Notes under the pieces: generated by a model
Databases searched by the model: none
What the model was told of the DNA's origin: nothing
What the model saw: only the letters and a program-made list of their open reading frames with translations
Assembly: GCA_021014325.1 (NCBI GenBank)
Contig: JAJGQC010000519.1
Location: forward strand, 124,001 to 188,000
DNA length: 64,000 bases
Direction: 5' to 3'
DNA from: Plazaster borealis
Lineage: Eukaryota; Echinodermata; Asteroidea; Forcipulatida; Labidiasteridae
Translations under genes and position numbers: made by a program
Shown: positions 10,649 through 50,695 of the stretch, piece after piece
Numbering within the stretch: position 1 is the stretch's first letter
How the letters are laid out: each line of letters begins with the position of its first letter

Positions 10649-10793
10649 GATCCTGAAATTAATATGTAAGGAACATTGTTTATTTGAATAATATTGACAA
10701 GTACCCCCCCCCCCTTAAAGTAACATTCATCATCATAATTCCATGGTCATAATAATTTTTTTAAATAACAAATTAGGCCTTGTATAGTTTAAA

Positions 10794-16670: not shown

Positions 16671-19600
16671 ATGAGCTTTGATTTTCACATAAGTGCACTT
16701 TCAAAATTATGTCGAGTTTGTGGTAATCGCTTGAGGAAAAGAACAGAAGAACACCGAGCACCGTTGACGTGTCGTGACTACACGAAGGAAATTTTGTCAG
16801 TATTTGGGGTTTCTACTTGGAATGACAAACCTGAAGTGCACCCTCAATGTTTCTGTGATAAGTGCGGACGAAAAGTAAGACACTACCAAGCAGGTACGAG
16901 AACCTATTCTTCTGGTGTTGATAATCAAACACGGGAATGGTTTAAACACACTAGAGTCAGTGATTGTGGTGTTTGCCAACTATTTTCCGAGCAAAGTAGG
17001 CCTGGGCGACCATCAAAAAAAGTACAAGGGGGTAGTCTTCATCAGAAGCAAGAGGAAAAGGAAAGTCTGCCATTTGATTTAACTGAGGAGAACATCTTCA
17101 CTACAAGTCAGAAGCACATACCTGATTCTTGCCTCTCCCTTGACATAGTAGGAAGAGAAAAAGAACACTCTGTGTTTACATGTCCAATTTGTTTGTGTAT
17201 TTTGTCATCCCCATCCATTCAAACAAGGTGTGAGCACTATTTTTGTGCAAAGTGTTTTACAAAATACTTCCAGCACAAACAGAGTTCGGTTGCCCCTTGC
17301 CCAGTTTGCAAAGCTGTTGTGAACTACAACCAAGTGTTTGAAAGTCCCAGGGCACTGCGAATACAACTGCAGAATCTGGTTGTAGTATGTGACCAATGTA
17401 CACAAATTGGTAAATTTTCTCAGCTGTACAACCATTCTTGTTCAACTAGTACACAAGTTTCAAAAAAGAAGATACAAACTATCTGTGAGACAACCACCCC
17501 AAGTGAACAGGATAACATATTACAAGCAGCTAATCTTCTACGAACCGAAGCTATAAAACATGCAAGAGGGACCCTATACCGTTCGCCATCGAGCAGGCTA
17601 CAGACGGATGGACCTGGTTAAAATTACAGCTAGGAGACAAGGTTACATCACTGAAAACAGGAGGCAGAGTAAGCTTTATACTTATCTTTTAATTTATCAC
17701 AGCTTTCAACATGACAATAAATAGTAACACTGACTTGAACTGTGTCTTCATCAGTATTACATTGTAGTTTAGAAAATCACATCATATTTATATTACATAA
17801 TTTAAAGTTTGTTTTGAAATAATTAATTATATGTGCAACCATCTCTATGATGTAATAACCGATAAGGTAATTAATACCTTGGATATAATTAACACACCCT
17901 CTCTGTTGTTTAGCCTGCTGTGATAAAGCAAGTGAGTGCAACATCAGCCACTGAACCCAAACCCCAAAGCAGCCAGCATGTCAAATCATCCATCCCAGCC
18001 AATAAAGTCCTAGCCATGATGAGGGACTGTCACCTTGCATGGGACCAATTCCGAAAACTAAGAAAGTGAGTAAATTTCATCCCATAAAACTATTTTTACT
18101 TGATAAATAAAATTGTAAAACACGACAAAACATTTTTTTATTTGTTATTAACCATCATTGCCTTTCGATAACAAAATGCAGGTACATTGACACATCAGCC
18201 ATTGCCTCTGAGCGATCAATGAGGAAACAGCAGAAACAACTCCTGCAAGATTATATACAAGGAGAATTAGTTCTCCTCAAGTTCACCAGCTCAAAAGCAG
18301 ATGCAGTTGATGGATACGAGAAGAAATTGGCCCCCTTTGTGAAAATCAACAATGTCTCTGCAATGGTTATAGACTACCTAGACCGACTTGACAGGTATGC
18401 CACATTTTCATTTCACTTCATTAAACAAAATTTAATTGGAAGTTTCAATACATTAATTGTTATAGTAATGTAATATTATTAAATTACAATTAAGAATTAT
18501 GCCTACTAATCTAGAGCGCATTTCAATTTCACTTGTGAAATTTTACATTTAATGCTAAATTTTACAAGTGAAACATGGAAATATAAACATGTGCTCAATG
18601 CAACAAGCAATTGATAATGTTCATACATATTAAACTGAGTAATTAATTTTCTATGTCCTCATAATGTTCTTTGCATTGTAGGAGCCATTCCCTCATCTCC
18701 CACAATGGAGTTATCCCGACGATGAGGTATGGTTAAAGATCGGAGGAGATAAAGGTGGAACCTCCTTCAAAATGGCCTTTCAGATTGTGAATGTCAACCG
18801 ACCAAACAGTTTGAAAAACACAACATTTGCTGTTTTTGAAGGAGACGATTCCCTTTACAACCTACAGCAGACTATGCCTGCTGTTCTTGAGGACATCTTT
18901 GATCTTACCAACCAAACATGGCGGTAAGGTTAATGTTAAAAATAAAAACTTCATGCATTTATTTCGAGCAAAAACAAAAATAATAATAAAAAACAAACTC
19001 ATAAACAAATTCAACTTTCTGTGACTAAATCGAAGAAAAAATTTACAACACAAAATTCAACTTTCTGTGACTAAATCGAATTTTTAATTATAACACAATT
19101 ACATTCTAAAACCACTATTGAATATCTTTGCATTTTTCTAGAGGCCGGAAGTTTCGTCTGTTTTGTTTCGGTGACTATGCCTTCCTTACTAAGCTGTATG
19201 GAATATGTGCTTGCAACGGTAAGACAATATTTTTTCTAATACATGTATGCCTGGGTTTTTTTTAAAGCAAAATAATTTTTGTCAAGAGTACTACTGATGA
19301 ACACATGTACACTCATTAATATTTTTTTTTTAATATGCAATAGCTAGATACAGTTGCATTTACTGTCTAGCATCAAACACTGAAAGGCAGCATCCACTTA
19401 GTAAGCGGGGCCCATCTCCTAAGAGGACATTAGCCAGCCTTCAAGAACAGTATCTAAAGTTTGTTCAAGATGGACAGCATAGGCATCGTGCTAAAGAGAT
19501 ATCGTACAGTGTGGTCACCAAGCCCATGCTTCAAATAGAGCCAGACCATGTAAGTTTTTACTCAACAAACTGAGAATGCCATTAACTTTTCAGTTTGTGG

Positions 19601-27910: not shown

Positions 27911-28719
27911 GTCAGGTGCACTTGACCTGTCAGTGATTACAAGTTAAAATATATTGGTTAATGAAATAATTTGATGGTATAAGATATTGTCCCTGACCAC
28001 TCAAGATTTACTAATGCTTTTTGTACAATGATTGCCAATCCTATATTTAACTTTTAAATTAACAAATTTCAGCTGGAGAGATTGTCATGCTATAGTATGC
28101 CTACACTTTTGACCGTTCTAGAAGTAAAGTTGAGTTTTCAATATAGCCGCCATTATTTCAATTTATCCTTCTGAACCAATTTTCTAATATAAATCATTAA
28201 CAACTGCATTTTGTCTCAAACAAATTTCAATATTTTTTGTAATGCAACTCTGTATTGTACCTTTATGCATTTACAGACCCTGTAACGGGCAGTGATCCAC
28301 AGCTGCCAAAAAAAACTAGTCAGTTTCGGAGGAAAAAGCTCTTTTTTTTCTACGCATAAATATGGACAAGGCTTTTTGCTCTGGAATTATGGATCATCAG
28401 CATTAATGGGGCAAGGTAAGATCTGAACTGCAAGACCTAGATATTAGTGCAACACAACACAACTCATAAATAAGTGGAACCAACTGAAAAAAAGATACAA
28501 AGAGGTGAAGGACTTTAACAGGCAAACTGGTAATGACAGGAATAAATTCAAATTCATTTAAAAATTTGGTGACTTGTATGGGGAAAAGGCCTCAACAGAG
28601 CCAATGTTTAACATTAATTCCCTGATAGGAGACAGTAAGAAGTCTGATAAAAAGACTACCAGTAGTGACAAAACCAAACCTCAGAAACCACCTCAGAAGA
28701 GAACTTTTGAAAGACATAT

Positions 28720-30983
28720 AGTAGTAGTAAGAGTGGGGCCTTTATGACGCAACGTACCCGTAGCCCCTGGAGCCAGTAGTATACACAATGGGGGGTTCTG
28801 GACCACTTTCCGGAGTATGCACCCCCTTCTACACAATGGTGATTCTGGACCACTTTCCGGAGCATGTATACCTCTGGACACAATGGGGTTCTGGACCACT
28901 TTCCGGAGTATGCACACCTCTTACTAGAGTCTAGATTTTGCGGGAGCAACCCTAACTTTCGGCAACCACGAAACAAGGAGGAAAATATTGTTTTTTGCCC
29001 AACTCTAGCAGATAGATACACAGTATCGGCATCGACCACTAGGACGTGCAGCCAATAGATAGATAGACAATATCGGTATCGACTACACACCATCTGTACC
29101 CACTAGCACTACTCTGGACTACGAATCCAACACCGGTGGAACAAACCGCTGGGGCACCGAGAGATAGATAGATATGTGGTATCGGGGTGTTCGAGAGAAA
29201 CCTTTCTAGAGTATTTTTGCACCCAGACAACACTAGCACACACATCTATCGATACCGATACTACACAATACCGCGTATCTACTGGGCGCAGTCGATACCA
29301 ATACTACGTATCTGCTAGTGGGAATCTGGTGTACTGTAGGCGATAGCCACAGCACCGACACTGGCCAGCACCGATAGATATGTAGTATCGGTATCTGCCT
29401 CTGTCTACCGTTGGCACCGATACTGGCACGCGTGCCGTTGCCGCGGCGGTGTAGGCGATACTACCACAGACACTACGTGCCAGCGTAGGGTTGGGTGCAG
29501 GCGATACCGATACTGGCACACGCGCCGCTGCCTACTGCGTATCTACCAGACACCAATACTGTGTATCTGCCGCTGTCGGCGATATCGATACCGCCAGGCA
29601 CTGGCACCAACAGGCACCGATAGCCACTGGCACCAATACTGGCACGCGTGCCGCTGCCTACTTGCGTATCTACCAGGCACCGATACTGGCACACGTGCCA
29701 CTGCCTACTACGTATCTACCTGTGCGAATCTGGCATAGTGTGGGTTGGGTGCAGGGTTGGGCGCGGTGTAGGCGATACCGCCAGGCACAGGCACCGATAG
29801 CCACTGGCACCAATACTGGCACGCGTGCCGCTGCCTACTGTGCATCTACCAGGCACCAATACTGGCACACGTGCGCTGCCTACTGCGTATCTGTGGCAGG
29901 CACCGATACTGGCACACGTGCCGCTGCCTACTACGTATCTACTTGTGCGAATCTAGCATAGCGTGGGTTGGGCGCAGGGTTGGGCGTACCGTAGGCGATG
30001 CCGATACCAACAGACACCAATAGCCACTGGCACGCGTGCCGCCGTCTACTGTGTATCTATGGCACCGATACTGGCACACGTGCCGCTACCGACCACATGC
30101 CTACTGTGTATCCGTGGCACCACATGTCTGTGCGAATCTAGCATAGCGGGGGTTGGGTGCAGGGTTGGGCGTACCGTAGGCGATGCCGATACCGACAGAC
30201 ATCGATAGCCACTGGCACCTATACTGGCACGCGTGCCGCCGCCTACTGTGTATCTATGGCACCGATACTGGCACACGTGCCGCTGCCGACCACATACCTA
30301 CTGCGTATCTATGGCAGGCACCGATACTGGCACACATGCCGCTGCCTACTACGTATCTGCCTGTGCGAATCTGGCATAGCATGGGTTGGGTGCAGGGTTG
30401 GGCGTACCGTAGGCGATACCGATACCGCCAGGCACTGGCACCGATAGCCACTGGCACCGATACTGGCATGCGTGCCTACTATGTATCTACCGCGGCGTAG
30501 GATTGGGTGTAGCCGATACCAATACTGCGTATCTATCTACCAAGCACCACGTATCTACCAGGCACCGATACTGGCACACGTGCCGCTGCCTACTGCGTAT
30601 CTTGGGCGCGGTGTAGGCACCGATACCGGCACACGTGCCGCTGCCTACTACGTATCTACCTGTGCGAATCTGGTGTAGCGTGGGTTGGGTGCAGGGCTGG
30701 ACGTACCGTAGGCGATACTGATACCGCCAGGCACTGGCACCGACAGACACCGATAGCCACTGGCGCCGATACTGGCACGCGTGCCGCTGCCTACTGCGTA
30801 TCTGGCGTAGCATGGGTTGGGTGCAACCGATACCGATAGATACGCAGTATCGACTACATGCCATCTATCGAGGCGCGCAGTAGGCCAGCACGTAGTGCTA
30901 GTGCCTGCCAGGCAGATACCGATACTGCGTATCTATCTATCGGTGCTGGCGTAGCGCGGTTGGGTGCAGGTCGATACAACCAG
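28720..30983 (+). repeat. Left arm of the giant element: array of palindrome-rich units
   Basis: Near the tip, three copies of a GGACCACTTTCCGGAG unit. From about 29050 inward, units of roughly 180-240 bp built from a fixed vocabulary: the perfect palindrome GGCACGCGTGCC, GGCACACGTGCC, TACTGCGTATCTACC, GATACCGATAC, GTGGGTTGGGTGCAGGGTTG. At least six units are visible (near 29730, 29955, 30133, 30377, 30680, 30805). Open frames across it are artefacts of the repeats. Confidence 0.85.
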
Positions 30984-31240
30984 GCACTGGCACCAATGCC
31001 GATACTGCCAGGCACTGGCACCGATAGCCACTGGCACCAACTGGCACACATGCCACTGTCTACAACGTATCTGCTACCATCTATCTGGCAGGCACTAGCA
31101 CTACGTGCTGGCCTACTACGTGCCATCCGCCGGTGTAGGCGATACTACAATTTTCTACCGATTTCTACTGCTTTGAAACCTATAGTGTTGCTAAAATTAC
31201 CAATTGAACAATAGAGCAACAATACTATACAAAGCAACCA
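30984..31240. other. Spacer between left arm and coding interior
   Basis: Continues the arm vocabulary (CAGGCACTGGCACC, ACTACGTGCTGGCCTAC) to about 31150. Then an AT-richer leader of about 90 bp, possibly the promoter of the first ORF, precedes the ATG at 31241. Confidence 0.4.
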
Positions 31241-33026
31241 TGGCAACCACCAAAACTACAACCAAGCAAGCAACGTTCCAAGCTATGGGGCTTCAAGCGA
31301 AAAATCGGTGGGTGCCCACCTACTGCCCGAAAACACACACGAAAACAACCTTGTGGCGGACATCGCCAAAGTAGACTACCTACTTGGGCACCAAGGGCGC
31401 ACCCACCTTCGCCCCCTTTTGGGGCTTCCAACATTTGTCGACGATATCTATGTGTTTGGATATCTTCGAGCCGACGATTGTGTTGTTGTTAGAGGCAAAA
31501 CCTCTTGCACCATTGGGGGAGAAGGCGCTGCAAAAAAAATTGTGGGGAGGATCGGCATGGACGTCTCCGAAACCCTCGGAAAGGGCGCAGGACACATCCA
31601 TACCACAATCCTACACACCATAGGAATCGAAAGACAGGGCGCAATTCGCAACACGATAGAAGGTATCGAGCAAGACACAAACCGCCACGCCCTAGAAGCG
31701 TGGAAAAAGAAATATCCAGAAGACACCCCCGCTGGGATCTTTGTAGCAAAGATTGGAGTATCCGAAATCTCCATGGAAGTGTTGCAAGAAGAGCTGCCAG
31801 CATTCGAGCGAGCTATTGCGTGCCATGGCTACGGACTCTATAGCATAGACTACACGAAAGACTTCTCGGGAGTTCTAGACCGCGCAACCCTTGTCGAACA
31901 CCTCCAAACATTGGGGTGGCGCGAACAAGGAGATCTAGCAGCCGCAATGCTAGAACCAACACCAACAATCCTTGCCAACACAGGTAGTGTTGGTGCCCAT
32001 GTATGCACCTGGGTTCGAACAAACGGCGGGTACACAGTGCGAATCAAAATATACAACAAAGTTGTGTCGAACTTCGAAGCTGGAGAAATCCGAGAACCAG
32101 TGGGAGGCCATCTAGCCGACTATGTCGACTGCCCCAACCAACACCTACGGAAAACCTTTCTACACCCCGACGTCCAAGCAAGAGGTTGCACTAGAATCGA
32201 AGTTTCGTTGTACGCGTGCCGTGGAGACGCATTGTCGGCAACAACAGCGGAAAAAGTTGTCGGCGAAGCGTTGGCGGTTGTGTCGCCCCCCGATTCCGAA
32301 GGGTTGTTTGTTGTACAACCACCAGCCAAACAATGGGAAAACCTTGCAGCAGCTCTAGACCGTTGTTTGGTGCTAGCCGATAGACCACAAAAAACAATCT
32401 TTGTAGCGTGGTATGCCCACACAACAACTGGGAGAGTCTCTGGGGTTCGCATCCAACCCACACAAACAATAGCAGACAACGACGACACCTGGGAGCGTGC
32501 GGTGGTGTGTGCCGCAGGAGACTTTGGTTTTCGCGCTTGTCCAATATTTCGTGTCGATATACTTGGTATAGACAACGATACTCTAGACCTTGGACCACTA
32601 CGGTGCTACACAAAAAGTAGCGATGCACCAACAATACTTGCTGCGAGCAAACGCCCCATGCAACTACATCCAGACGCTCCCAACCCCACAACCCTCCTAC
32701 CCACCACAAAACATGTGCAATGGGTTTGGCGAACAACAAAAGCCCAACAAGTCGGCAAACACGATTCGGAGCATATACTCGAAGAGATAGCAGAGATTGC
32801 GGCAAACCGCCAAATCTCGACACTATCTACAATAGCCAGAGAGCGCAGGCGAACAGAGCTCCGCATAGCTGCAGAAGCAGAAATTTGGCTGCGCAAAGCA
32901 GGAAGCAAACTCGAAGCAGAGCGCGAACACCTGGCTCGACAAAAAGAACACCGACTAGCCGAACTTGTTCGACTTGGTAGAGCAGCCGACGCATGCGACA
33001 CTACAAACAACTATCCGAGGACATAG
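31241..33026 (+). CDS. Large ORF of the giant element, about 570 codons, unknown (Rep-like?)
   Basis: Open from 31308 to the TAG at 33024-33026. The first in-frame ATG is 31557, but protein-like sequence extends upstream. An ATG at 31241 opens another frame (MATTKTTTKQATFQAMGLQA) that seems to need a one-base shift near 31345, so the 5' end is uncertain. Features of the 31308 frame: GHIHTTILHTIGIE at about residue 95; GYGLYSIDYTKDFSG at about 175; VRIKIYNKVVSNFEAGEI, then RGCTRIEVSLYAC, in the middle; a long charged helix, probably coiled coil, over the last 90 residues (ARERRRTELRIAAEAEI). The order IDxxxDF..YNK..RIEV weakly recalls Rep_trans-type rolling-circle initiators, and HIH could be an HUH-like pair. 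This is inference only; I do not recognise the family. It overlaps the next ORF by 34 bp. Confidence 0.6.
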
Positions 33027-33562
33027 AAGAAGAAGTTGCTGTCGCGCTTTCGACAACCACAGGAACCCACAAAATTGCAGAACTAGCAGAGTCTGGCACA
33101 TGGGTTGTTGTAGGGTATAGAGAAACCTTTGGGAAACACGCGTACAACTCCATTCGAGTAGTGCTAGAACAAAACAACGAGAAAACAATCGTTTGGGCAA
33201 CGAAAAAGTTGGAAAGAATTCTTGTAGAATGTGTAGATATATTCGAAAAGCGCAGAGATACACGCAAGAAACGAACCACAGCGTGGCTTCCACAAACCCG
33301 CACAACAGAACCGAAAAAAGTGTTTGGAGGTCTTTCGATATCGATTGGAGCCCAAAAAACATTCGAAAAAGGTGGCGAAAAAATATCTTGGAATCCAATA
33401 CATATAGAAACAGCTACACACCCACACCGACTTGGGTTTCTACAGGTGTTGGCAGAACGGCTCAAGAGTATACCGAAATCGAAGCAGAGCACGCAGCAGC
33501 CGAGGAAAAGAATATTTGCGAAGTTGTACCACCAAAGCCCCAAGAAACACACAAAACCCTAG
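32993..33562 (+). CDS. Second ORF of the giant element, 189 codons, unknown
   Basis: Starts at an ATG inside the last 34 bp of the large ORF in another frame. Reads MRHYKQLSEDIEEEVAVAL, then TWVVVGYRETFGKHAYNSI, a basic region, and KKVFGGLSISIGAQKTFEKG. The sequence stays protein-like to about 33460, after which the sensible frame continues in the -1 direction (next entry). That may be programmed frameshifting, a mutation or an assembly indel. The mixed alpha/beta, charged character gives no family assignment. Confidence 0.5.
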   Translation: MRHYKQLSEDIEEEVAVALSTTTGTHKIAELAESGTWVVVGYRETFGKHAYNSIRVVLEQNNEKTIVWATKKLERILVECVDIFEKRRDTRKKRTTAWLPQTRTTEPKKVFGGLSISIGAQKTFEKGGEKISWNPIHIETATHPHRLGFLQVLAERLKSIPKSKQSTQQPRKRIFAKLYHQSPKKHTKP

Positions 33563-33837
33563 AGCTCGACGCTGGAGAGTATGTGTGCTACAACTTCGCT
33601 ATCCAACCATTTCGAGGTGCAAATAGAACCATTCTATTCCTTGCACCTGCAGACGAAAATGGAAAACCCACAACAGACAACGAGGTGCCTATCTATGGGC
33701 ACTTTCTAGAAAAAGCTTTGCACCAAATGGGTGGACCCCAAAAACTTCGCGGCTCGCTCTCCACTTCTATGCACCCTTGGAGAAGTTTGCACAACACCAA
33801 ACAAAAGAAAGATAGACAAACAACTATAGCGGTGTAG
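33440..33837 (+). CDS. Continuation of the second ORF in a shifted frame, unknown
   Basis: The frame ending at TAG 33835-33837 reads EYTEIEAEHAAAEEKNICEV, then LELDAGEYVCYNFAIQPFRG and NRTILFLAPADENGK, strongly protein-like. From about 33720 another frame (DPKNFAARSPLLCTLGEV) looks better, implying a second shift. A small beta-rich C-terminal domain is likely; function unknown. Confidence 0.4.
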
Positions 33838-33889
33838 CGCTATACAACGAGTCCACCACAAGGCGTGCAATACGCCACACACCCCCAGT

Positions 33890-34380
33890 ATGCTACCACA
33901 TACAACTTCCCTAGGTCCCAAGAACAAATTTTACGCTTCTGCGGGCTCGAGATGTCCAAGAATATGGAAAGATTGTGGAAATTTGGCTGCAGCGGCACCC
34001 ATATTTTTTTCTTCGTACCAGGGTGTGTCTTGTTGGTACGCTGCTACACATTCTTCGAACGCGCAGACTGGCGAAAAGTGTGGGCACGTGCCGCGAGCTC
34101 GCACGAATTCTATCGTGGATTCTGCGCAGGTTGGAGGAGATGTAGTATCTGCCATGGTGTATCTACATACTCTTGCCGACTCTCTAGTTGGTCTTCATGG
34201 CGACACGTCTACGAATCTACCGCGTCTGGAGTACGGCTACTCCACCACCACTGGTACACGACCACCTTCTACCTCGGTACACAACGATATACAGCCTTCC
34301 AACATCCCACTACACAAAATTTTTGTTTCTACCAGCTTTGCCCGATACTGGCACCACGTGCCATCTGCCACCACCTGCTA
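33890..34380 (+). CDS. Possible third ORF of the giant element, unknown
   Basis: From ATG 33890 the frame reads MLPHTTSLGPKNKFYASAG and later QVGGDVVSAMVYLHTLADSL and GYSTTTGTRPPSTSVHNDI, then runs into the 53-bp minisatellite. Alternative frames are also open here, so coding status is uncertain. Confidence 0.3.
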
Positions 34381-34770
34381 CCGCCTGCTACCACCTGCTA
34401 CCAACTTTGCTACTACTTGCTACCAGCTTGCTTCCACCTGCTACCACCTGCTACCAACTTTGCTACTACTTGCTACCAGCTTGCTTCCACCTGCTACCAC
34501 CTGCTACCAACTTTGCTACTACTTGCTACCAGCTTGCTTCCACCTGCTACCACCTGCTACCAACTTTGCTACTACTTGCTACCAGCTTGCTTCCACCTGC
34601 TACCACCTGCTACCAACTTTGCTACTACTTGCTACCAGCTTGCTTCCACCTGCTACCACCTGCTACCAACTTTGCTACTACTTGCTACCAGCTTGCTTCC
34701 ACCTGCTACCACCTGCTACCAACTTTGCTACTACTTGCTACCAGCTTGCTTCCACCTGCTTCCACCTGCT
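34375..34770. repeat. 53-bp minisatellite
   Basis: Seven or so nearly perfect copies of a 53-bp unit containing CTTCCACCTGCTACCACCTG and CAACTTTGCTACTACTTGC (copies start at 34431, 34484, 34537 and so on). Because 53 is not a multiple of three, each frame shows the same protein repeat out of phase, which explains the overlapping long open frames. A degenerate CTACCACCT tail continues to about 34890. Confidence 0.9.
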
Positions 34771-35117
34771 GCCAGCCTGCCTCCAGCCTGCTTCCAACCT
34801 ATCTCTACCTACCACCACCTACCTCCACCTACCTCCACCTGCCGCCACCTACCACCTACCACCAGCAGCTTCTACCACTTGCGCAGCAGATAGATAGCAC
34901 TACGTGTTGTATCTGTATTGCCTCCACCGGCACTACGTGCCAGCGGAGCGCAGCCGGCACCGATACAGATACGTAGTATCTATCTCCATCGGCGAGTATT
35001 GTTGTTTGCTACTACAGACAGATACCGATACTGCGTATCTATCGGTTGTGGCCTCGCTGGAGTATCTATCTATCGTTGCTAGATTGGAGGAGTGTAGTAT
35101 ACTATATAGTCTCGAGT

Positions 35118-35297
35118 ATGCGTTCCGAAAGCCCAGAAACAATTCTTCGAGAGTATGTAGCTCCACAGGCGCCAAAACAACACCAGACAAAACCCCGTTC
35201 CAAGCAGAGCAACAAAATATTGGATTTTGTGGTATGGGTGGTTGTTGTCGCTGGCACTATATGTTTGTTGGGGGTGCGTCCAAAGCAAGATTTCTAG
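35118..35297 (+). CDS. Small single-pass membrane protein of the giant element, 59 aa
   Basis: ATG 35118, stop TAG 35295-35297. The N-terminal 37 residues are polar and Pro/Lys/Gln-rich (PQAPKQHQTKPRSKQSNK). They are followed by a clear transmembrane segment (ILDFVVWVVVVAGTICLLGV) and a short basic tail (RPKQDF). The start lies in the arm-type repeat vocabulary. It could be chance, but the polar-TM-basic layout is well formed. Confidence 0.4.
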   Translation: MRSESPETILREYVAPQAPKQHQTKPRSKQSNKILDFVVWVVVVAGTICLLGVRPKQDF

Positions 35298-35392
35298 CCC
35301 CATGGTCCGCGTTTGCTCTTGCGGGGTGCTGCTTTGCGCTGTCTGTTGCGTGTTGTCTAGAGTAGCGCTCTGCGCTGCATCGCCAGATAGCA

Positions 35393-35701
35393 CTACGTGT
35401 TGTATCGGGTAGAGATATGTTTTTGTAGCCGGCGCGCTGCGTATGCCAAACACTTTGGGTTGGTGGGAGTAGCGAGTTCGCCAAGAATGGCTATGGCGGT
35501 TTCCAACTCTTGCGTCTCCAAACATTTTTCCAAATCTGCAACCATCGATGTTGTTGTAGGTTTTCGAGCATAGGTTTTCGCAAACTTTTTGCGCGCTTCT
35601 AGCGGGATTTTTTTGCACCCAAGGACTACATCCGCTGTGGTTTGCAACACTGCTGGGCGCCAGGGCTCTAGAGCAGCTACGGTGGTTGGTTGTTTTTCCA
35701 T
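35393..35701 (-). CDS. Small ORF A of the giant element, 102 aa, paralogue of ORF B
   Basis: ATG at 35701, stop at 35393. Reads MEKQPTTVAALEP, then KIPLEARKKFAKTYARKPTT, MVADLEKCLET, AIAILGELAT and a basic end RRLQKH. By my hand alignment about 61 of 102 residues match the ORF at 38480-38857 on the other strand. Both have stayed open, which argues for a real, selected protein. Predicted mostly helical; family unknown. Confidence 0.6.
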   Translation of the reverse strand: MEKQPTTVAALEPWRPAVLQTTADVVLGCKKIPLEARKKFAKTYARKPTTTSMVADLEKCLETQELETAIAILGELATPTNPKCLAYAARRLQKHISTRYNT

Positions 35702-36410
35702 GTTGTATCTCTTGTTGTATGTGTCCAAAAGGCACGTGGTAGATAGATACAGATACGTAGTATCGGGGCAGTGGCAGATGGCACGTAGTCGATACTGCGT
35801 ATCTATTGGTACCAGTCGGTGCCTGGCAGTGGTAGATGGCATGTAGTGCCGGTATCGGTGCCAGCCAGATAGCGGCACACATGCCAGTGGCTATCGGTAT
35901 CGGTCTGCGCCCAACTGGTACGTAGTAGATACACGGTGCCTGGCAGGTATGTGGTAGCAAATTGGTATCGACTACGCCCAACCAACACATGGCAGGCACG
36001 TGGTCGATACTGCGTATCTGCCAGATAGATACGTGGTATTGGTGCCTGGTAGACATGTGGTAGATACGTAGTAGGCACGTGGTGCTATGCCAGTATCGGT
36101 ATCGACTACACCCAACCAGCACATGGCAGACACGTGGTCGATACTGCGTATCTGCCAGATACGTGTTGCCTGGCAGGCATGTGGTAGCAAATCGGTATCG
36201 GCTACGCCCAACCCTACACCAGCACATGGCAGGCACGTGGTCGATACTACGTATCTGCCAGATATGCAGTAGGCGGCAGCAGGTAGCGGCACGTGTGCCA
36301 TACCAGTATTGGTGCCTGGCAGGCAGCGGCACACACACCAGTATCGGTGCCATTGTTAGGTATGTAGTATCGGTGCCATACCACTATCGGTGCCTGCCAG
36401 ATTGTGGTAG
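35702..36410. repeat. Interior palindrome-rich array
   Basis: Same short words as the arms (GATACTGCGTATCTGCCAGA, GGCACGTGGT, GTAGCAAATYGGTATCG, CACCCAACCAGCACATGGCA). Open frames on the minus strand are shadows of the repeats. Confidence 0.7.
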
Positions 36411-36900
36411 AAATCCTTTGCCATATATTTTTTTTGCTATTTTTCGAAATTTTGCTATTGCCAAATATTTTTGCTATTTCAAAATTTTTTTGCTATTTCG
36501 AAATATTTTTGCTATTTCGGGATATTTTTGCTATTTCGGGATATTTTTTTTGCTATTTCGAGATATTTTGCCATTTTGGGATATTTTTTTCTATTTCGGG
36601 ATATTTTTTGGCCATTTCGGGATATTTTGCCATTTCGGGATATTTTTGCTATTTCGGGATATTTTTTGCTATTTCGAGATATTTTGCCATTGCCATTTCG
36701 AAATATTTTTGCTATTTCGGATATTTTTGCTATTTCGATATTTTTGCTATTTCGGGATATTTTTGCCATTTCCAGATATTTTGCCATTGCCATTTCGAAA
36801 TATTTTTTTTGCTATTTCGGGATATTTTTTGCTATTTCGAGATATTTTGCCATTGCCATTTGAAATATTTTTTGCCATTTCAAATATTTTTGCCATTCGT
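36411..36900. repeat. AT-rich minisatellite of about 20-24 bp units
   Basis: Some 20 variants of TTTTGCTATTTCGGGATATT and TTTTGCCATTTCGAAATATT in one orientation. All three frames give Phe/Ile/Tyr-rich nonsense. Confidence 0.9.
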
Positions 36901-37725
36901 GCGCTCCGCCGATACTGCGTATCTATTGGTATCTATCTATCGCCTGCACCACCCCAACCAGCACCACGTGCCTACCGCAGATCCAGATAGATACACAGTA
37001 TCGGTGGCAGCGGCACGCGTGCCAGTCGGTGCCAGATAGATATGTGGTATCGGTATCGCCTGTATCGCACCCAACCCTGCTCCCAACCCCACACTACATT
37101 GGTACGTCTACACCAGCAGCGGTAGGGAGATACGTTGTAGGTAGTGGTAGGCAGCGCACGCGTGCCAGTATCGGTGCCATGCCAGTATTGGTGCCGGTTT
37201 GTCGGTGCCTGCCAGTGGCAGTATCGGTACTAGATAGATATGTTGTATTGGTATTGGTATCGCCACGCTACGTAGATAGATAGATAGCGGTAGATACGTA
37301 GTAGGCAGTGGCACGCGTGCCAGTATCGGTATCGATGTAGTGTCGAACGCGTCTACACTAGATAGATACACAGTATTGGTATTGGAAACAATATCTTCAC
37401 ACGGTACACACAGCCCTACACCACACGCAACCACGCTACGCCCAACCCTACGCTACACAGTATAGACGGCAGCGCACGTGTGCTAGTATCGGTGCCTGCC
37501 AGTGGTAGAGATTGGTATATGGTGCCAGTATTGGTATCGATGTAGTGCCGGTAGTGGTATGCAGCGGCACGCGTCGATAGATACATATCTATATTGGTGC
37601 CTGCCAGATAGTGGTGCCAGAGATAGATAGTGGCAGACATGTAGTAGGCAGCGGCACGCGTGCCAGTATCGGTGCCATGCCAGTATCGGTATAGGTGTCT
37701 ACACCAGACCCAACCCTACAAAATT
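36901..37725. repeat. Interior palindrome-rich array
   Basis: Arm-type vocabulary again (GGCACGCGTGCCAGTATCGG, CGCTACGTAGATAGATAG, CCTACGCTACACAGTATAG). No coding signal. Confidence 0.65.
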
Positions 37726-38065
37726 TTTCTATCGTGCGATAGAAATTCGCAACTCGCGATAGAAATCCCCAACTCGCGATAGAAATTCCCAACGCGGGAT
37801 AGAAATTCGCAACTCGCGATAGAAATTCGCAACTCGCGATAGAAATTCCCAATGCGCGATAGAAATTCGCAATGGTGGAAATTTTGGAAAAAACACATGT
37901 TTTCCCAATAGAAACCACATGTTTTCCCAATAGAAACACATGTTTTCCAATAGAAAACATATGTTTTCCCAATAGAAACCACATGTTTTCCCCAATAGAA
38001 AACACATGTTTTTCCCCCAATAGAAAACACATGTTTTCCCAATAGAAAACACATGTTTTCTCGCC
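37726..38065. repeat. Two adjacent minisatellites (20-21 bp and about 22-24 bp)
   Basis: 37730-37875: about seven copies of CGCGATAGAAATTCGCAACT with CCC/CGC variants. 37890-38060: about eight copies of ACATGTTTTCCCAATAGAAA. Both read as repetitive nonsense in any frame. Confidence 0.9.
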
Positions 38066-38479
38066 TAGACCACACCCAACCCTCGCAAGGCCAGCACGTA
38101 GTGCTAGTGCCTGGTATTGGTAGGCAGTGGTAGGTATGTGGTGCCAACCAGTATCGGTGCTAGAGATAGATAGCAGCAGATACGTAGTAGGCATGTGGTG
38201 CCAAGCAGATACCGATACTACATATCTATCGGTGCTGGTATTGGTATCGATGTAGTGCTAGATAGGTAGTGGTAGGTAGCGGCAGGCACGTGGTGCCAGC
38301 TAGTATTGTTGCTAGATAGATATGTGGCATCGGTATCGATGAATTGCTAGATCTATAGTCGATGTAGTGTTGGCAGGCGGTGGTAGGAGATACGTAGTAT
38401 TGGTGCCAGCCAGTAGGAGTGTTTGTTGTATACCAATTGGAGACACCCAACTCTAGATAGATACATAGTATCGTATCGT
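38066..38479. repeat. Interior palindrome-rich stretch upstream of small ORF B
   Basis: Arm-type words (CCAGCACGTAGTGCTAGTGC, GATACCGATACTACATATC, GTAGTGTTGGCAGGCGGTGG) run up to the ATG of the ORF at 38480. Confidence 0.6.
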
Positions 38480-38857
38480 ATGGAAGAACAACCAACCACC
38501 GTAGCACATATAGAACCTTGCCGTTTGCCAACAACAAAAACCACCTCGGGCGCTATCCTCGAGTGCGAAAAAATCCCCCTAGAAGCTCGCAAAATGTTTG
38601 CAAAAACCTACACTCGAAAACCTACCATAGCAACGATGGTTGTAGATTTGGAAAAATGCCTCCAAACGCAAACCTGCGCAGACGCTATAGCAATTCTCGA
38701 CGCTCTCGCTACTATCGACAACCCTGGGTGTTTGGTGCGTGCATCTCGAAGGTTGCGAAAACACTTTGCCGCACAACACAATAGATGTGTGGTAGCTCCT
38801 ACTCGAAGTAGTCTCGCGGTAGCTCCTACTCGAAGTTGTCTCCAACCACTACTGTAG
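38480..38857 (+). CDS. Small ORF B of the giant element, 125 aa, paralogue of ORF A
   Basis: ATG 38480, stop TAG 38855-38857. Shares MEEQPTTVAHIEP, KIPLEARKMFAKTYTRKPT, MVVDLEKCLQTQ, AIAIL and SRRLRKH with the minus-strand ORF at 35393-35701. It has an extra C-terminal 20 residues containing a doubled VAPTRSxL motif. Helical, basic at the end, function unknown. It is transcribed toward the right arm. Confidence 0.6.
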   Translation: MEEQPTTVAHIEPCRLPTTKTTSGAILECEKIPLEARKMFAKTYTRKPTIATMVVDLEKCLQTQTCADAIAILDALATIDNPGCLVRASRRLRKHFAAQHNRCVVAPTRSSLAVAPTRSCLQPLL

Positions 38858-38930
38858 CGATAGTTACGCAGTATCGACTACGTGCCATCCACCATCTGTC
38901 GAGTATTTGGCTCCAAAAATATATTTTTTT

Positions 38931-41111
38931 TGGTTGTATCGACCTGCACCCAACCGCGCTACGCCAGCACCGATAGATAGATACGCAGTATCGGTATCTG
39001 CCTGGCAGGCACTAGCACTACGTGCTGGCCTACTGCGCGCCTCGATAGATGGCATGTAGTCGATACTGCGTATCAATCGGTATCGGTTGCACCCAACCCA
39101 CGCTACGCCAGATACGCAGTAGGCAGCGGCACGCGTGCCAGTATCGGCGCCAGTGGCTATCGGTGTCTGTCGGTGCCAGTGCCTGGCGGTATCGGTATCG
39201 CCTACGGTACGTCCAGCCCTGCACCCAACCCACGCTACACCAGATTCGCACAGGTAGATACGTAGTAGGCAGCGGCACGTGTGCCGGTATCGGTGCCTAC
39301 ACCGCGCCCAAGATACGCAGTAGGCAGCGGCACGTGTGCCAGTATCGGTGCCTGGTAGATATGTGGTGCTTGGTAGATAGATACGCAGTATTGGTATCGG
39401 CTACACCCAATCCTACGCCGCGGTAGATACATAGTAGGCACGCATGCCAGTATCGGTGCCAGTGGCTATTGGTACCAGTGCCTGGCGGTATCGGTATCAC
39501 CTACGGTACGCCCAACCCTGCACCCAACCCACGCTATGCCAGATTCGCACAGGCAGATACGTAGTAGGCAGCGGCACGTGTGCCAGTATCGGTGCCTGCC
39601 ATAGATACGCAGTAGGTATGTGGTCGGCAGCGGCACGTGTGCCAGTATCGGTGCCATAGATACACAGTAGGCGGCGGCACGCGTGCCAGTATAGGTGCCA
39701 GTGGCTATCGATGTCTGTCGGTATCGGCATCGCCTACGGTACGCCCAACCCTGCACCCAACCCCCGCTATGCTAGATTCGCACAGACATGTGGTGCCACG
39801 GATACACAGTAGGCATGTGGTCGGTAGCGGCACGTGTGCCAGTATCGGTGCCATAGATACACAGTAGACGGCGGCACGCGTGCCAGTGGCTATTGGTGTC
39901 TGTTGGTATCGGCATCGCCTACGGTACGCCCAACCCTGCGCCCAACCCACGCTATGCTAGATTCGCACAAGTAGATACGTAGTAGGCAGCGGCACGTGTG
40001 CCAGTATCGGTGCCTGCCACAGATACGCAGTAGGCAGCGCACGTGTGCCAGTATTGGTGCCTGGTAGATGCACAGTAGGCAGCGGCACGCGTGCCAGTAT
40101 TGGTGCCAGTGGCTATCGGTGCCTGTGCCTGGTGGTATCGCCTACACCGCGCCCAACCCTGCACCCAACCCTGCACCCAACCCACACTATGCCAGATTCG
40201 CACAGGTAGATACGTAGTAGGCAGTGGCACGTGTGCCAGTATCGGTGCCTGGTAGATACGCAAGTAGGCAGCGGCACGCGTGCCAGTATTGGTGCCGGTG
40301 CCTGTCGGTGCCAGTGCCTGGCGGTATCGATATCGCCGACAGCGGCAGATACACAGTATTGGTGTCTGGTAGATACGCAGTAGGCAGCGGCGCGTGTGCC
40401 AGTATCGGTATCGCCTGCACCCAACCCTACGCTGGCACGTAGTGTCTGTGGTAGTATCGCCTACACCGCCGCGGCAACGGCACGCGTGCCAGTATCGGTG
40501 CCAACGGTAGACAGAGGCAGATACCGATACTACATATCTATCGGTGCTGGCCAGTGTCGGTGCTGTGGCTATCGCCTACAGTACACCAGATTCCCACTAG
40601 CAGATACGTATCGGTATCGACTGCGCCCAGTAGATACGCGGTATTGTGTAGTATCGGTATCGATAGATGTGTGTGCTAGTGTTGTCTGGGTGCAAAAATA
40701 CTCTAGAAAGGTTTCTCTCGAACACCCCGATACCACATATCTATCTATCTCTCGGTGCCCCAGCGGTTTGTTCCACCGGTGTTGGATTCGTAGTCCAGAG
40801 TAGTGCTAGTGGGTACAGATGGTGTGTAGTCGATACCGATATTGTCTATCTATCTATTGGCTGCACGTCCTAGTGGTCGATGCCGATACTGTGTATCTAT
40901 CTGCTAGAGTTGGGCAAAAAAAAAAAATTTCCTCCTTGTTTCGTGGTTGCCGAAAGTTAGGGTTGCTCCCGCAAAATCTAGACTCTAGTAACCATTGTGT
41001 AGAAGGGGGTGCATACTCCGGAAAGTGGTCCAGAACCCCCCATTGTGTATACTACTGGCTCCAGGGGCTACAGGTACGTTGCGTCATAAAGGCCCCACTC
41101 TTACTACTACT
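38931..41111 (-). repeat. Right arm of the giant element
   Basis: Reverse-complement copy of 28720-30983. The match begins at TTGTATCGACCTGCACCCAA (38931) and runs to the CATAT duplication at 41112. Differences from the left arm are few: a shorter tip repeat near 40990-41050, one extra CCCAACCCTGCA unit and scattered bases. Confidence 0.85.
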
Positions 41112-41675
41112 CATATTGAAATCATGGAATCAATATTGAAAACTTTCAAACGGCCTGGCAGACGAAGCCAACAAGTTTAGTGATGCTAAACTAGCCAGGA
41201 TGGATAGGTTCTTGGACATTTTCGAGAAGTCTGTGAAGAGTAAGAATAACACAGAAGAGTGACCCCATATAAGGGCATTTAACAGGCAACACCATTTTTG
41301 ACGAGTTGGGTTAAAAAAAATTTGAATCAATAACAGATAGTTCATTCCATGTCAATTCAACACCTTTTTTCACCTTACCCTCGTCGAATGAAGGGAAATA
41401 TCCAATGCTAATTGGTATCTGTAAGAAAACCCCTGCACTGAAATTATAATGTGATTTGGCTAATTAGTTTAGGAGGTAAGGGTTAGCACTTTAGCTGTCT
41501 TATAACTTTTGTTAACAATGTAGTAACTACATGTATTTCATAAAATGTTTGTGATGGGCACTTCCCCATTTAGTTATGCTATTTTTAAAAAAGGTTAAAT
41601 GTCCGTTTTGTATGCATTTTCATTTTTCTTGACGGTACGGTTGTGTTTTTTTGTTGTGAAATGAAAACCATTTAA

Positions 41676-45515: not shown

Positions 45516-45683
45516 ATGAAAGAAGTACTCGGTTTTCTAGCACTAAGTCTAGTTCTTATTTGTCTGGTTTTGGTAATTATCATAGTCTGCCTGCTGGCAA
45601 TTAAAAGTCACCGACAACGGAGACAATTTCTGAGGCAGAGGCGTATTGTTATTGCTCGCAGTGAGCAGGTCACCTCACTATGA
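45516..45683 (+). CDS. Small single-pass membrane ORF ahead of gag, 55 aa
   Basis: ATG 45516, stop TGA 45681-45683. A four-residue head is followed by a long hydrophobic segment (about residues 5-29, LSLVLICLVLVIIIVCLLAI) and then a strongly basic tail (SHRQRRQFLRQRRIVIARSE). Its stop overlaps the gag start as ATGA, the arrangement that permits stop-and-restart translation. I know of no standard Ty3/gypsy gene here. The overlap with gag and the well-formed TM-basic plan argue against chance. Confidence 0.55.
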   Translation: MKEVLGFLALSLVLICLVLVIIIVCLLAIKSHRQRRQFLRQRRIVIARSEQVTSL

Positions 45684-46738
45684 GTGAGACCAAACAATTA
45701 AATCCCAGCTATCAAGAGGACCTTAGTAGGTCCAGAATGGAACTGCAGTTACTGCAGTGGGAGAAGGCCCAACAGGCGAGGCGGATTGAGGAGCTTGAGG
45801 CTGCCTTAAAGCAGGCAAAGACGTCCGAGGAACCAGTTAGTCGAGCTGGAGGACGCCAGCAAAAGCGTGTGAGAATAGATGGGGACATTGATTTTAAATT
45901 TCCGAGTCAATGTTTAAACGACTTAGGGGAGGAGTCCTTAGGCTTCGCCTCATTTGAGGCACGAACACCATCTAGTACAAAGAAAATTGCCGAGATCCCT
46001 TTGTTGGATGGACATGGAGAGCATAATTTGAGTGATTGGATTACTCCTCGGAGGAGCAATGAGGTATCCACTCCTGTTACCGCTAAGGTACGTGAGGAGG
46101 AGGGTTTGAGGAGTACAAATCCTTTTGTGGATATGAAGGACAAACAAGTCCATTGTGAGTTGTTAAGTTTTGCAACAAGATCACCAAGTATTTCTGACAG
46201 TGTGTCAGCTGAACAAACAGGCACTGAAAAGGCAGGGCCTTGGAACCTGAAGAGAGAAACGAGAGTTGTTGGGGGAGAGGGGGTGAAAGATAGAGGTACC
46301 CCTCGTCGCCCTTATATTGTCCCCGATCGTTACAGTGGGAGAATTCAATGGAATGAGTACCATAAACATTTTGAGAGTTGTCGGTTAGTTAACCGTTGGG
46401 ACAAAGAGCAGTCGGCAGAGTATTTGGCAGCCAGTCTACAAGGTGATGCTGTCCGTATCCTTGGTGAACAGTCGAGGTGTGTTGGTGACTTGACAAAACA
46501 GCTAGATGTTATGGTAAAGCTGTTAGCGTCGCAACCATCAAAAGAGGCCCCTGTGAGGGTGCCTGAGGTTCCCCAAAGTCCAGATGGACGGCGTTTTCAG
46601 AGTAGGGGGACCAGGTCTGACATGAAGTGTTTTAACTGCGGTGAGAGGGGGCATTTTGCAGCAAGGTGCAAGAAACCCAGACACCAGCAGGGAAACGACG
46701 AGCAGTCTTCCGGCGGGTCCGCGGAAAGGCTGAAGTGA
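45680..46738 (+). CDS. gag with CCHC zinc knuckle, 352 aa, apparently internally deleted
   Basis: The N-terminal 45 residues are a charged coiled coil (EDLSRSRMELQLLQWEKAQQ). Middle: YSGRIQWNEYHKHFESCRLV, the start of a retrotransposon gag domain. C-terminal: CFNCGERGHFAARC (C-x2-C-x4-H-x4-C) near 46630. Between GDAVRILGEQ and KQLDVMVKLLA the usual 100 or more residues of the gag capsid region seem missing, so this copy may lack a functional capsid. The stop at 46736-46738 overlaps the next frame, consistent with -1 frameshifting into pol. Confidence 0.8.
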   Translation: MSETKQLNPSYQEDLSRSRMELQLLQWEKAQQARRIEELEAALKQAKTSEEPVSRAGGRQQKRVRIDGDIDFKFPSQCLNDLGEESLGFASFEARTPSSTKKIAEIPLLDGHGEHNLSDWITPRRSNEVSTPVTAKVREEEGLRSTNPFVDMKDKQVHCELLSFATRSPSISDSVSAEQTGTEKAGPWNLKRETRVVGGEGVKDRGTPRRPYIVPDRYSGRIQWNEYHKHFESCRLVNRWDKEQSAEYLAASLQGDAVRILGEQSRCVGDLTKQLDVMVKLLASQPSKEAPVRVPEVPQSPDGRRFQSRGTRSDMKCFNCGERGHFAARCKKPRHQQGNDEQSSGGSAERLK

Positions 46739-49700
46739 GCAATGGGCCCATGGAAAGAGAACCAGATACATCAAGTAGAAAAAGGAAACTTGAGTGTGAC
46801 AATAAAGTACGGGTTGTTTCAGTCCCGAGGTATGGTTTATTTGTGGATGGATGCGTGAGGTCGACAAAATTTCGAATGTTGATAGACACAGGTGCAACTG
46901 ACACGTTAATTAGTTCTACAGTGTATTACCAAATTCCACCAGGTCAGAGGCCAACCCTGGAGAGTTGTGACGTTGGGCTACGCCAAGTGGATGGTACGCC
47001 ATTGCAAATATTTGGCACGGCGTGGGTTGAGCTTACAGTCGGTAAGACAACTACACCTGTAAAGGTAATAGTCGTAGACATTTCACTTCCTGCAATGTTG
47101 GGAATGGACTGGCTATTGTCCACTGGTGGTAATTTAGATTTTAGAAATATGGAATTGAATGTGAATGGCCAAAGGGTCAAGTGTACGAATAGTTCAGGTG
47201 AAGCGTTTGTCGGCAGAGTGGTGGTAACTGAGACAACTGTGATACCAGCCGGTCATGAGGGCATTGTAAGGGGAGCCATCATCAACCGTGGCGAGGGGCT
47301 CAAGGGTCCATTTATTGTTGAGCCAATCGAGGGAGGTGGCGAGCTGGCCCAGAGGGGCCTCGTGCTAGCTAGGTCTGTTGTCGAGGTACCCACTGAGGTG
47401 GTACCTGTTAGGTGTTTAACCCTAGCAAGGAAAAGCGAGTACTCCACGCGGGAACTACAGCCGCAAGGGTATTCCCTGTTGAGGTGGAGACCGTGCCAAA
47501 TGCACACGATAGTCAAAACCATGAGGCTCTTCCGGTGCACCTACGGAATTTGTATGAGAGGGGCATTGCGGATTTGAGTCCATCACACCATCTGGAAGTG
47601 ATGAGGTGCTTGATTGAATATCAGGATATATTTTCGAAGGGTGACGGTGACATTGGACGCACAAATCTTGTTAAGCATTCTATTAACACTGGGGATGCTA
47701 GGCCACAGAAGCAGAGGCCTAGAAGGCATCCTGCTTGTCACCAGCAAGAGATACTGAGGCAAGTTGAGGGACTCAGACAACAGGGTCTAATAGAGGAGTC
47801 CGATAGTCCATGGGCGGCTAACATTGTGTTGGTCAAGAAAAAGGATGGATCAAAACGTCTGTGTGTGGATTATAGGGGTTTGAATTTCGCTACTATCAAG
47901 GACGCATATCCAGTACCCCGTATCGATGAGACGCTTGATGCCCTCGAGGGGCAAAGTGGTTTTCAACCTTGGATATGGCGTCAGGGTATTGGCAGGTACC
48001 TTTAGATGAGGACGCCCAACTAAAATCATCGTTCTTGGTACGCAACGGGTTGTATAAATGGAAGGTAATGCCGTTTGGTTTGGCGAATGCGCCGGCAACA
48101 TTCGAACGCCTAATGGAAAAGGTTATGTCTGGCCTCCAATGGGAAGTTCTGTTGATTTATCTCGATGACATTATCGTTTTGGCAAGACAGTGAGTGAGGA
48201 GGTGGAGCGTCTTCGAGTAGTGTTTTCAAGGCTAAGAAAGGCCGGGTTGAAACTGAAGCCCAGCAAATGCCACCTCTTCCAAAGGTCCGTGACCTACCTA
48301 GGTCACATAGTCTCGGGTGAGGGGATAGAAACTGATCCTGCAAAGATCAAAGTAGTCGCCGAATGGCCAGTCCCGAAGTCAGTAAAAGAAGTGAGAAGTT
48401 TCTTAGGGCTGGCATCTTACTATCGCCGTTTTATCCGTGGGTTTGCGGATATTGCAAGCCCTTTGCATGCCCTGACTGGGAAGTCAAAGGTCTTTGATTG
48501 GAACAATGCCTGTCAAGAGGCATTTGAGCAATTGAAGAAAGAACTGCAAACTTCTCCGGTGTTGGCTTATCCTTCGCCGGATGGGAAGTTTGTATTGGAC
48601 ACTGATGCAAGTGCTGAAGGTATTGGGGCGGTGCTGTCGCAGGTGTGTGAGGGCGAAGAGAAGGTTGTTGCTTACGCAAGCAGAAAGCTTGGCAAAGCAG
48701 AGAAAAACTACTGTGTGACTCGGCAGGAGTTACTGGCAATAGTGGTTTACCTAAGGTACTTCAGGCAGTATCTCTATGGGCAAAAGGTGACGGTCAGAAC
48801 AGATCACTCAGCACTCCGCTGGTTGCTCAATTTCAAAGATCCTGAGGGGCAGCTGGCGAGGTGGTTAGAAGTGATTTCTGAATATGATATGACAATCCAA
48901 CATAGACCAGGCAGGAAACATACCAATGCGGACAGTCTATCACGGAAACCGTGCAAGCAATGTGGGCAAGGTGATAAAGAAAAGGACAGTGAGGTGTCCG
49001 TACCATCCGTTAGCTCAGTGGTTGAGGCTAACCAGGCCGTAGTGAGGGGTGTGGTAGCGGAACCTTCAATTAGTCACATGAATCTTCGTGAGGCGCAGTT
49101 GGCAGATAAAACCATGAGTTGGTTGTTAACCACGAAGAGTGAGGGTTAGGACGTCCTGATTGGAAGGATGTTTCCCACTTGCCTCCAGCGAGTAAGATGT
49201 ATTGGGCCTATTGGGAGCAAATGTCTTTACGTGATGGCGTGTTGTACAAGCGCTGGGATTCGGACGATGGTATATCGTTCCGATGGTTGTTAGTTGTACC
49301 GGCACAGTTTCGATCTAAGTTTGTGTGTGAACTTCATGGAGGACCATTGGGTGGTCATCTTGGTCTAAAGAAGACCATGGCCAGAGTCAAACAACGGTAC
49401 TTTTGGTCTGGTATTACTGCCGATGTACGGTCTTGTATCCGGAGTTGTAATCAGTGTGCGAGGAAGAAGTCTCCTCCGAAGAAACGAGTTGCGCCACTAC
49501 GGCAGTACCATGTGGGAGGTACCATGGAGAGGGTCGCAATGGACCTCATGGGCCCCTTGCCTGTGACCGACGATGGGAATCGATGGATCCTTGTTGTTGC
49601 AGATTACAATACAAGGTGGATGGAGGCTTATGCGCTTCCCGATGCCCATGCTGACACAGTAGCGGCTAAGTTTGTGAGTGAGTTTGTGTGTAGATTTGGG

Positions 49701-50695
49701 GTTCCAAACGAACTCCATACTGATCAAGGTTCAAATTTTGAGTCTAAGGTTTTCCAAGAGATGTGCAGTATATTGGGGATTGCAAAGACGAGAACAACTG
49801 CGTATAACCCCAAATCAGATGGGCTCGTGGAACGTTTTAATCGTACCCTCATTTCCATTGTGTCTATGATGGTAGACCCCCGTAGAGGACAACGTGACTG
49901 GGATAAGTGTCTGTCCTTTGCGACGAGCGCCACCGCTCCACACCCCAAGAAACAACCGGTGAATCGCCGAATATGATGATGCTTGGGAGAGAGGTAATGC
50001 AACCGATTGATTTGTGTACTGAACAACCAAGTATTAGTGCTGAGGGGCCGACCACTGATTTCGCAGAGGAGTTGAGGTGTCGTATTCAGCAGGCACATGA
50101 TAAGGCACATGAGTGTCTTAAGAAGAACTCAAGGCGGCAGAAACGTAACTACGATAGAAGAGCCACTGATCCATGCCTACAGGAAGGTGCCTTTGTATGG
50201 CTCTATAATCCAGCAAAGAAGAAAGGTGTGTGCCCGAAACTTCAGCTAAAGTGGGAGGGGCCGTACCTGGTATTGCGAAAACTTTCAGACGTAGTCCTTA
50301 GAATACAGCTGCGGAAAGGGGCCAAGCCACGTGTTGTGCATGTAGATAGGCTCAAGCCATATACAGGGGATCCCATAAAGGCATGGAACCACACTAGTGA
50401 GGTTCCTGTGGAGGAGTCTCTGGAACGAGTAGAATCGACTCCAGACACTAATGAGGTTGCAGATGAGGTTTCTATGTGTATTGTACCTAAAGATAATTGT
50501 GAGGTACCTAAGGCTAAGGGCAAGGTACCTGAGGATGAGAGTGTTAGTGTGACTGAGAATGAGGGGAGCAACCCCCCGATTGAGGATGATTGTTTGATTG
50601 AGGTGGGTGGTCGAAATCAGGTGTCGACACCTGAGCCTAATGTAGCGAAGAGGTACCCAGTGAGGCAACACAAGTTACCTAAACGGTATCGTTAA
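46666..50695 (+). pseudogene. pol: protease, reverse transcriptase, RNase H, integrase; five frame changes
   Basis: Domains in order: protease LIDTGATDTLIS near 46880; RT with VDYRGLNFATIKDAYPVPRI near 47870 and the YLDD box near 48157; RNase H with DTDASAEGIGAVLSQ near 48600 and RTDHSALRWL near 48800; integrase with an HHCC finger near 49330-49470, Asp in MDLMGPLP, Asp in HTDQGSNF, Glu in GLVERFNR (about 49543-49840), and a GPY-type end (WEGPYLVLRK..VVHVDRLKPY). The frame changes near 47415, 47960, 48180, 49148 and 49925; otherwise the protein is conserved. Several changes lie at short homopolymers (for example TTTT near 48177), so they may be sequence errors. Starts in the -1 frame relative to gag. 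Confidence 0.88.

Follow-up and report, generated by a model that had tools for sequence, protein, structure and literature searches.

A multi-copy inverted-repeat element of the sea star Plazaster borealis encoding a predicted Rep_trans-like tyrosine endonuclease

Background

Rep_trans proteins (PF02486) include the Reps of pT181-type plasmids, relaxases of the Tn916/ICEBs1 type and proteins of some filamentous phages, and their published active site consists of D, DxAxD, RxYxK and RxE. The enzymes resemble TBP, and their tyrosine and three-carboxylate metal site has been likened to that of type II topoisomerases (PMC4797284, in excerpt); the relaxase of ICESt3, a member of this superfamily, acts together with OB-fold partners (PMC12614216, in excerpt). 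A 2026 paper describes Rep_trans as apparently bacterial and adds archaeal relatives. Here we describe a 12.4-kb element of the sea star Plazaster borealis whose large open reading frame (ORF), ORF1, is best read as a Rep_trans-like tyrosine endonuclease, recognisable by its active-site motifs and predicted fold only. The element lies in a stretch of 64,000 nucleotides (GCA_021014325.1, contig JAJGQC010000519.1, positions 124,001 to 188,000), called the window below, and all coordinates are those of the window.

A multi-copy mobile element

The insertion (28720-41111) has inverted arms of about 2.2 kb, begins with AGTAGTAGTAAG, ends with CTTACTACTACT and is flanked by a CATAT duplication (28715-28719 and 41112-41116). 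The left terminal inverted repeat (TIR; 28720-30982, + strand, 2263 bp) consists of outer 47-bp tandem units followed by GATACTGGCAC-type repeats (nine motif copies in a single orientation), and the right TIR (38931-41111, - strand, 2181 bp) matches it in in-register blocks of 95-100% complementarity, with about 99% match in a direct alignment when indels are set aside. The left arm exceeds the right by 82 bp, mainly through extra outer repeat sequence. G+C content is 37-39% in the adjoining kilobases versus 42-59% within the element, with values of up to 45-52% also reached elsewhere in the window. The interior holds a single large ORF (31215-33026, 603 amino acids) and several small ones. 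The first-pass annotation, which had proposed a giant inverted-repeat element with matching termini, a CATAT duplication and this ORF content, was thereby borne out in its description of the structure.

The element is real multi-copy mobile DNA that has moved in the past. ORF1 DNA gave at least 19 matches in the same genome (560.6 Mb, 717 contigs), of which at least 16, counting the window copy, are near-full-length at 95-100% identity and a further three are partial; the window ORF1 is 95-99% alike to the other near-full-length copies. The earlier worry about a one-off assembly artefact can be set aside on this count. A 5-bp duplication was present in all five copies read at both ends (CATAT in the window, AAAGC, ATTCA, CATTC and AAAGT, the last counted after a one-base boundary shift to the common AGTAGTAG start, where the unshifted boundary gave 3 bp), and all five start with AGTAGTA. 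This count comes from stretches around part of the 16 copies and leaves out L048-L049, L050-L051, L052, L053, L054 and L055-L056, where the two ends were not both resolved. The four other complete copies measure about 11.2 to 13.3 kb by coordinates. A check for empty sites over the window and the other loci compared brought up the sequence on either side of the window element and, at a second place in the window, a partial match of 53 bases; it showed no empty site.

The arms differ between subfamilies of the element. When nine copies or fragments were compared with the window element (matches above 200 bases), the terminal 202 bases of L048, L053 and L054 equalled those of the window at 98-100%, and what the four complete other copies have in common with it is limited to the regions of ORF1, ORF A and ORF B (see below) and short arm pieces. 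Two of the copies contain internal inverted duplications, of 2.35 kb at 96.6% in L053 (G000 C7) and of 2.7 kb at 98.7%, with two opposed ORF1 matches, in L054 (G000 C20).

Active-site motifs and fold of ORF1

The ORF1 family has the motifs D, DxTxD, KxYxK and RxE in the Rep_trans order and with equal spacing within the motifs, conserved at 97-100% across 119 homologues. In the window copy (all on the + strand), FVDD (31434-31445) is the proposed counterpart of the metal ligand D46/D9 of RepDE/RepSTK1, IDYTKD (31845-31862) that of D142-x-A144-x-D146, KIYNK (32046-32060, with the predicted nucleophile Tyr at 32052-32054) that of R189-x-Y191-x-K193, and RIEVS (32193-32207) that of R212-x-E214. 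The Rep_trans active-site set is present in the family, with K exchanged for R189 and T for A144. A phage record tried as a Rep_trans yardstick proved to be Rep_1 and was dropped.

The AlphaFold model of an ORF1 homologue contains a TBP-like domain, and a fold comparison of this model gave weak matches that include the Rep_trans rolling-circle initiator RepSTK1 and OB folds. HUH and RNase-H chains were not among the best 50 matches of that comparison, which excludes neither. Profile methods returned little. No credible family emerged from Pfam, run on eight window ORFs, on three homologues and on an alignment of 12 members, or from PHROGs, run on those 12 members; a sequence-profile search of the PDB gave weak matches only (BiP, CEP250 and similar). 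The earlier reading, in which no DDE transposase, integrase, polymerase B, ATPase, capsid, reverse transcriptase or Helitron helicase was recognised, is partly supported: no Polinton, DDE, reverse transcriptase or helicase profile was found in the scanned ORFs (eight of the window and homologues of ORF1), and the large ORF is recognisable after all, though only through motifs and predicted fold.

The ORF1 family and the decay of the window copy

By sequence similarity, ORF1 is a member of a large unannotated family that includes proteins of Elysia and Actinostola. With a cut-off of E 0.01, a protein search yielded 167 relatives (the best 120 listed); a profile search yielded 102, and both scored only about 8000 candidates; none of the 213 proteins listed by the two together has a precomputed Pfam domain. 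Named sources are Elysia crispata (two proteins), Actinostola sp. and a Candidatus Thiodiazotropha bin, and many relatives are predicted proteins of 840-870 amino acids on contigs of up to megabases. The relative in the Candidatus Thiodiazotropha metagenome bin (P0016) is probably DNA of the clam host that entered the assembly of its symbiont. Bacterial and archaeal genomes yielded no confirmed relative (two peptide patterns, 193 stretches tested).

Homologues are about 860 amino acids long, and the homology that remains downstream in the window lies in other reading frames, which shows that ORF1 is broken here: its 603 open codons (31215-33026, + strand) cover the N-terminal 600 or so residues, the frame is lost near 33.0 kb, and C-terminal remnants, from the region that is OB-fold-like in the homologue model, lie at 32981-33837 (+). 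With its frame lost, the window copy is probably not autonomous at present. A stop-free ORF1 frame of at least 881 amino acids occurs in two of the 16 near-full-length copies. When the window ORF1 was compared with 15 further copies, each over its best-matching open stretch, the ratio of non-synonymous to synonymous divergence (dN/dS) ranged from 0.33 to 1.12, a mixture that is expected where copies decay after insertion.

Small ORFs and arm repeats

ORF A (38417-38857, + strand, about 125 amino acids from its own ATG) and ORF B (35393-35890, - strand, about 102 amino acids from its own ATG) are paralogues, and ORF C (33931-34194, - strand) is a small Cys-containing ORF of about 80 amino acids that is also found in other copies. 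Judged by eye on the 15 clusters listed, five elements have ORF1, A/B and C in common, besides antisense frames and repeat frames. ORF A versus ORF B gave a dN of 0.27 and a dS of 0.81 (ratio 0.34, 101 codons), which suggests selection on these putative accessory proteins. Against other copies, the point estimates of dN/dS were 0.05-0.53 for ORF A (nine comparisons) and mixed for ORF B (0.44-1.25, with three of eight comparisons above 0.8). A protein search for relatives of ORF A/B found none among 294 candidates at E 0.01. The remaining interior contains tandem arrays of 53-bp units (34376-34774), of AT-rich units of about 19 bp (36431-36897) and of 20-bp and 22-bp units (37736-38060).

The window element contains 22 copies of the 11-mer GATACTGGCAC; none lies in the remaining 51,608 bases of the window or in 22,046 bases next to four other copies (73.6 kb together). 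In five left arms, one per element, its orientation is mostly one-way (9/0, 90/3, 44/0, 59/14 and 5/3). The motif has been retained while the surrounding arm sequence was replaced, which suggests that the repeats are putative binding sites. The arms of another subfamily contain an ORF for a 66-residue two-finger zinc protein (L055 66-263, - strand; L040 4386-4583, - strand; L041 3020-3217, + strand), preceded in L055 by TATA-like stretches (judged by eye); a search with that ORF found no match in the window.

Proposed mechanism

We consider it likely that the copies belong to an animal DNA transposon family of 11-13 kb that is moved by a single protein, ORF1, about 860 amino acids long, in which a TBP-like tyrosine endonuclease of the Rep_trans type would occupy the N-terminal part and OB-fold-like regions the C-terminal part. 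Transposition would probably be replicative. In the scheme that we propose, ORF1 would bind the GATACTGGCAC arm repeats, and its tyrosine (Y275) would nick at the AGTAGTA ends and remain attached to the 5' phosphate. A host polymerase could then start copying from the free 3' OH, with strand displacement by host enzymes, the OB folds of ORF1 holding single strands and the small ORFs serving as possible accessory factors. For insertion of the copy, two ORF1 subunits would nick the target at positions 5 nt from each other, and filling in between these nicks would give the 5-bp duplication; nicking, replication and the origin of the duplication are all inferred.

Type II topoisomerases make staggered double-strand cuts. 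A broader claim, which we put forward only tentatively, is that eukaryotes own a branch of TBP-fold Rep_trans-like tyrosine endonucleases that powers an unnamed class of autonomous transposons, and that the nickase does everything itself, including a topoisomerase-like 5-nt staggered cut of the target.

The Rep_trans profile itself, PF02486, gave no match to the window ORF (up to E 10), to the homologues P0012, P0114 and P0072 (up to E 1) or to the 12-member alignment (up to E 5). The target-insertion step is the least certain part of the mechanism; a 5-nt staggered insertion leans on the remark about a topoisomerase-like site (PMC4797284, in excerpt).

Comparison with known systems and alternative explanations

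The likeness to Rep_trans lies in the order of catalytic residues, the spacing within motifs and, probably, the predicted TBP-like fold, the match to RepSTK1 being weak. Unlike Rep_trans systems, ORF1 is found in an animal-type genome, is about 860 amino acids long with fused OB-like parts, has no PF02486 match and belongs to a TIR element with 5-bp duplications. Rep-Arvir, the initiators of archaeal viruses and plasmids, are likewise described as Rep_trans-related TBP-fold proteins invisible to sequence profiles, but they serve archaeal replicons and carry winged helix-turn-helix domains (PMC13107129, in excerpt), whereas ORF1 belongs to a transposon and has OB-like parts and a near-canonical KxYxK. 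If our reading is right, a tyrosine nickase as mobility enzyme is shared with Helitrons and Replitrons, and some Helitrons add RPA-like proteins (PMC6431247, in excerpt); the element differs from both in its long TIRs and 5-bp duplications. Only H21 and H294 are among the residues conserved at 95% or more in the 119 homologues, with no HxH pair as in HUH enzymes, and no helicase profile was found in the eight window ORFs or the scanned ORF1 homologues.

Polintons and adintoviruses have AG...CT ends and long TIRs, as the element does. A match of its ORFs to these elements had been considered at the outset; the eight window ORFs gave no PolB, integrase, ATPase, protease or capsid profile, and the duplication is 5 bp, not 6 bp, in the five copies read at both ends. 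For DDE transposons with duplications of about 5 bp (Transib, Ginger and others), no DDE profile was found in the ORFs of the element or in ORF1 homologues, in a scan that, where it covered the homologues, did detect DDE_1 in a neighbouring window ORF. Foldback and sea-urchin TU elements also have long arms of short repeats, with 8-bp duplications; the present element differs in its 5-bp duplications and in a shared coding core with ORF1.

The main rival explanation takes ORF1 as a Rep_trans-like replication initiator and leaves integration to an rve/DDE integrase of the Ginger or Polinton type acting in trans from another element, which would make the present element a rider at the insertion step. 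The 5-bp duplications with AG...CT ends do resemble integrase products, and the eight window ORFs contain no integrase profile. However, many contigs, among them those of Elysia and Actinostola, retain an ORF1 of about full length, which suggests that ORF1 and host factors suffice, and we regard an integrase in trans as unlikely. No partner element with AGTAGTA termini was seen, though no genome search with the termini underlies this negative. Still less probable is an endogenous virus-like linear replicon with terminal resolution in the style of parvoviruses, its long arms being replication origins and integration a by-product of replication. The very long arms with mostly one-way repeats and the zinc protein encoded inside the arms of another subfamily would fit such a replicon, but no capsid or packaging profile was found in the eight window ORFs, viral contigs yielded no confirmed relative of ORF1 (31 stretches tested, with two peptide patterns), and duplications that are regularly 5 bp long point to a dedicated insertion reaction. 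Finally, we give little credence to the TBP-like domain being a DNA-binding module only (a transcription or origin factor), as the D, DxTxD, KxYxK and RxE sets, which hardly vary, correspond to the catalytic site of Rep_trans enzymes and, to our knowledge, TBP needs no such residue cluster. A TBP-like fold is a property of Rep_trans enzymes themselves (PMC4797284, in excerpt).

Neighbouring features of the window

Three other features of the window were observed. An ORF at 16656-17621 (+ strand) has matches to the RAG1 importin-binding (E 1.1e-5) and RING-finger profiles and resembles the N-terminal half of RAG1 or of a RAG1-like transposon protein. A pogo/Tc5-like DDE transposase ORF of 712 amino acids lies at 8576-10714 (- strand; DDE_1, HTH_psq and HTH_Tnp_Tc5, with a PHD finger just under the cut-off), and a string of ORFs at 45665-50695 (+ strand) looks, by eye, like Ty3/gypsy gag-pol.

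Implications

No eukaryotic Rep_trans-like transposon and no superfamily with matching 5-bp duplications was found among the matches listed for the open-licence literature (listings and abstract starts). The element may represent a new class of animal transposon if the reading of ORF1 holds; Repbase and Dfam lie outside this comparison and may contain a bare consensus under an unclassified name. If the reading is true, the Rep_trans-type fold would be spread over three domains of life, and eukaryotic mobile DNA would have a new enzyme class beside DDE enzymes, HUH enzymes, tyrosine and serine recombinases and reverse transcriptases. It would also raise a testable question, namely by which route a tyrosine nickase arrives at clean 5-bp duplications.
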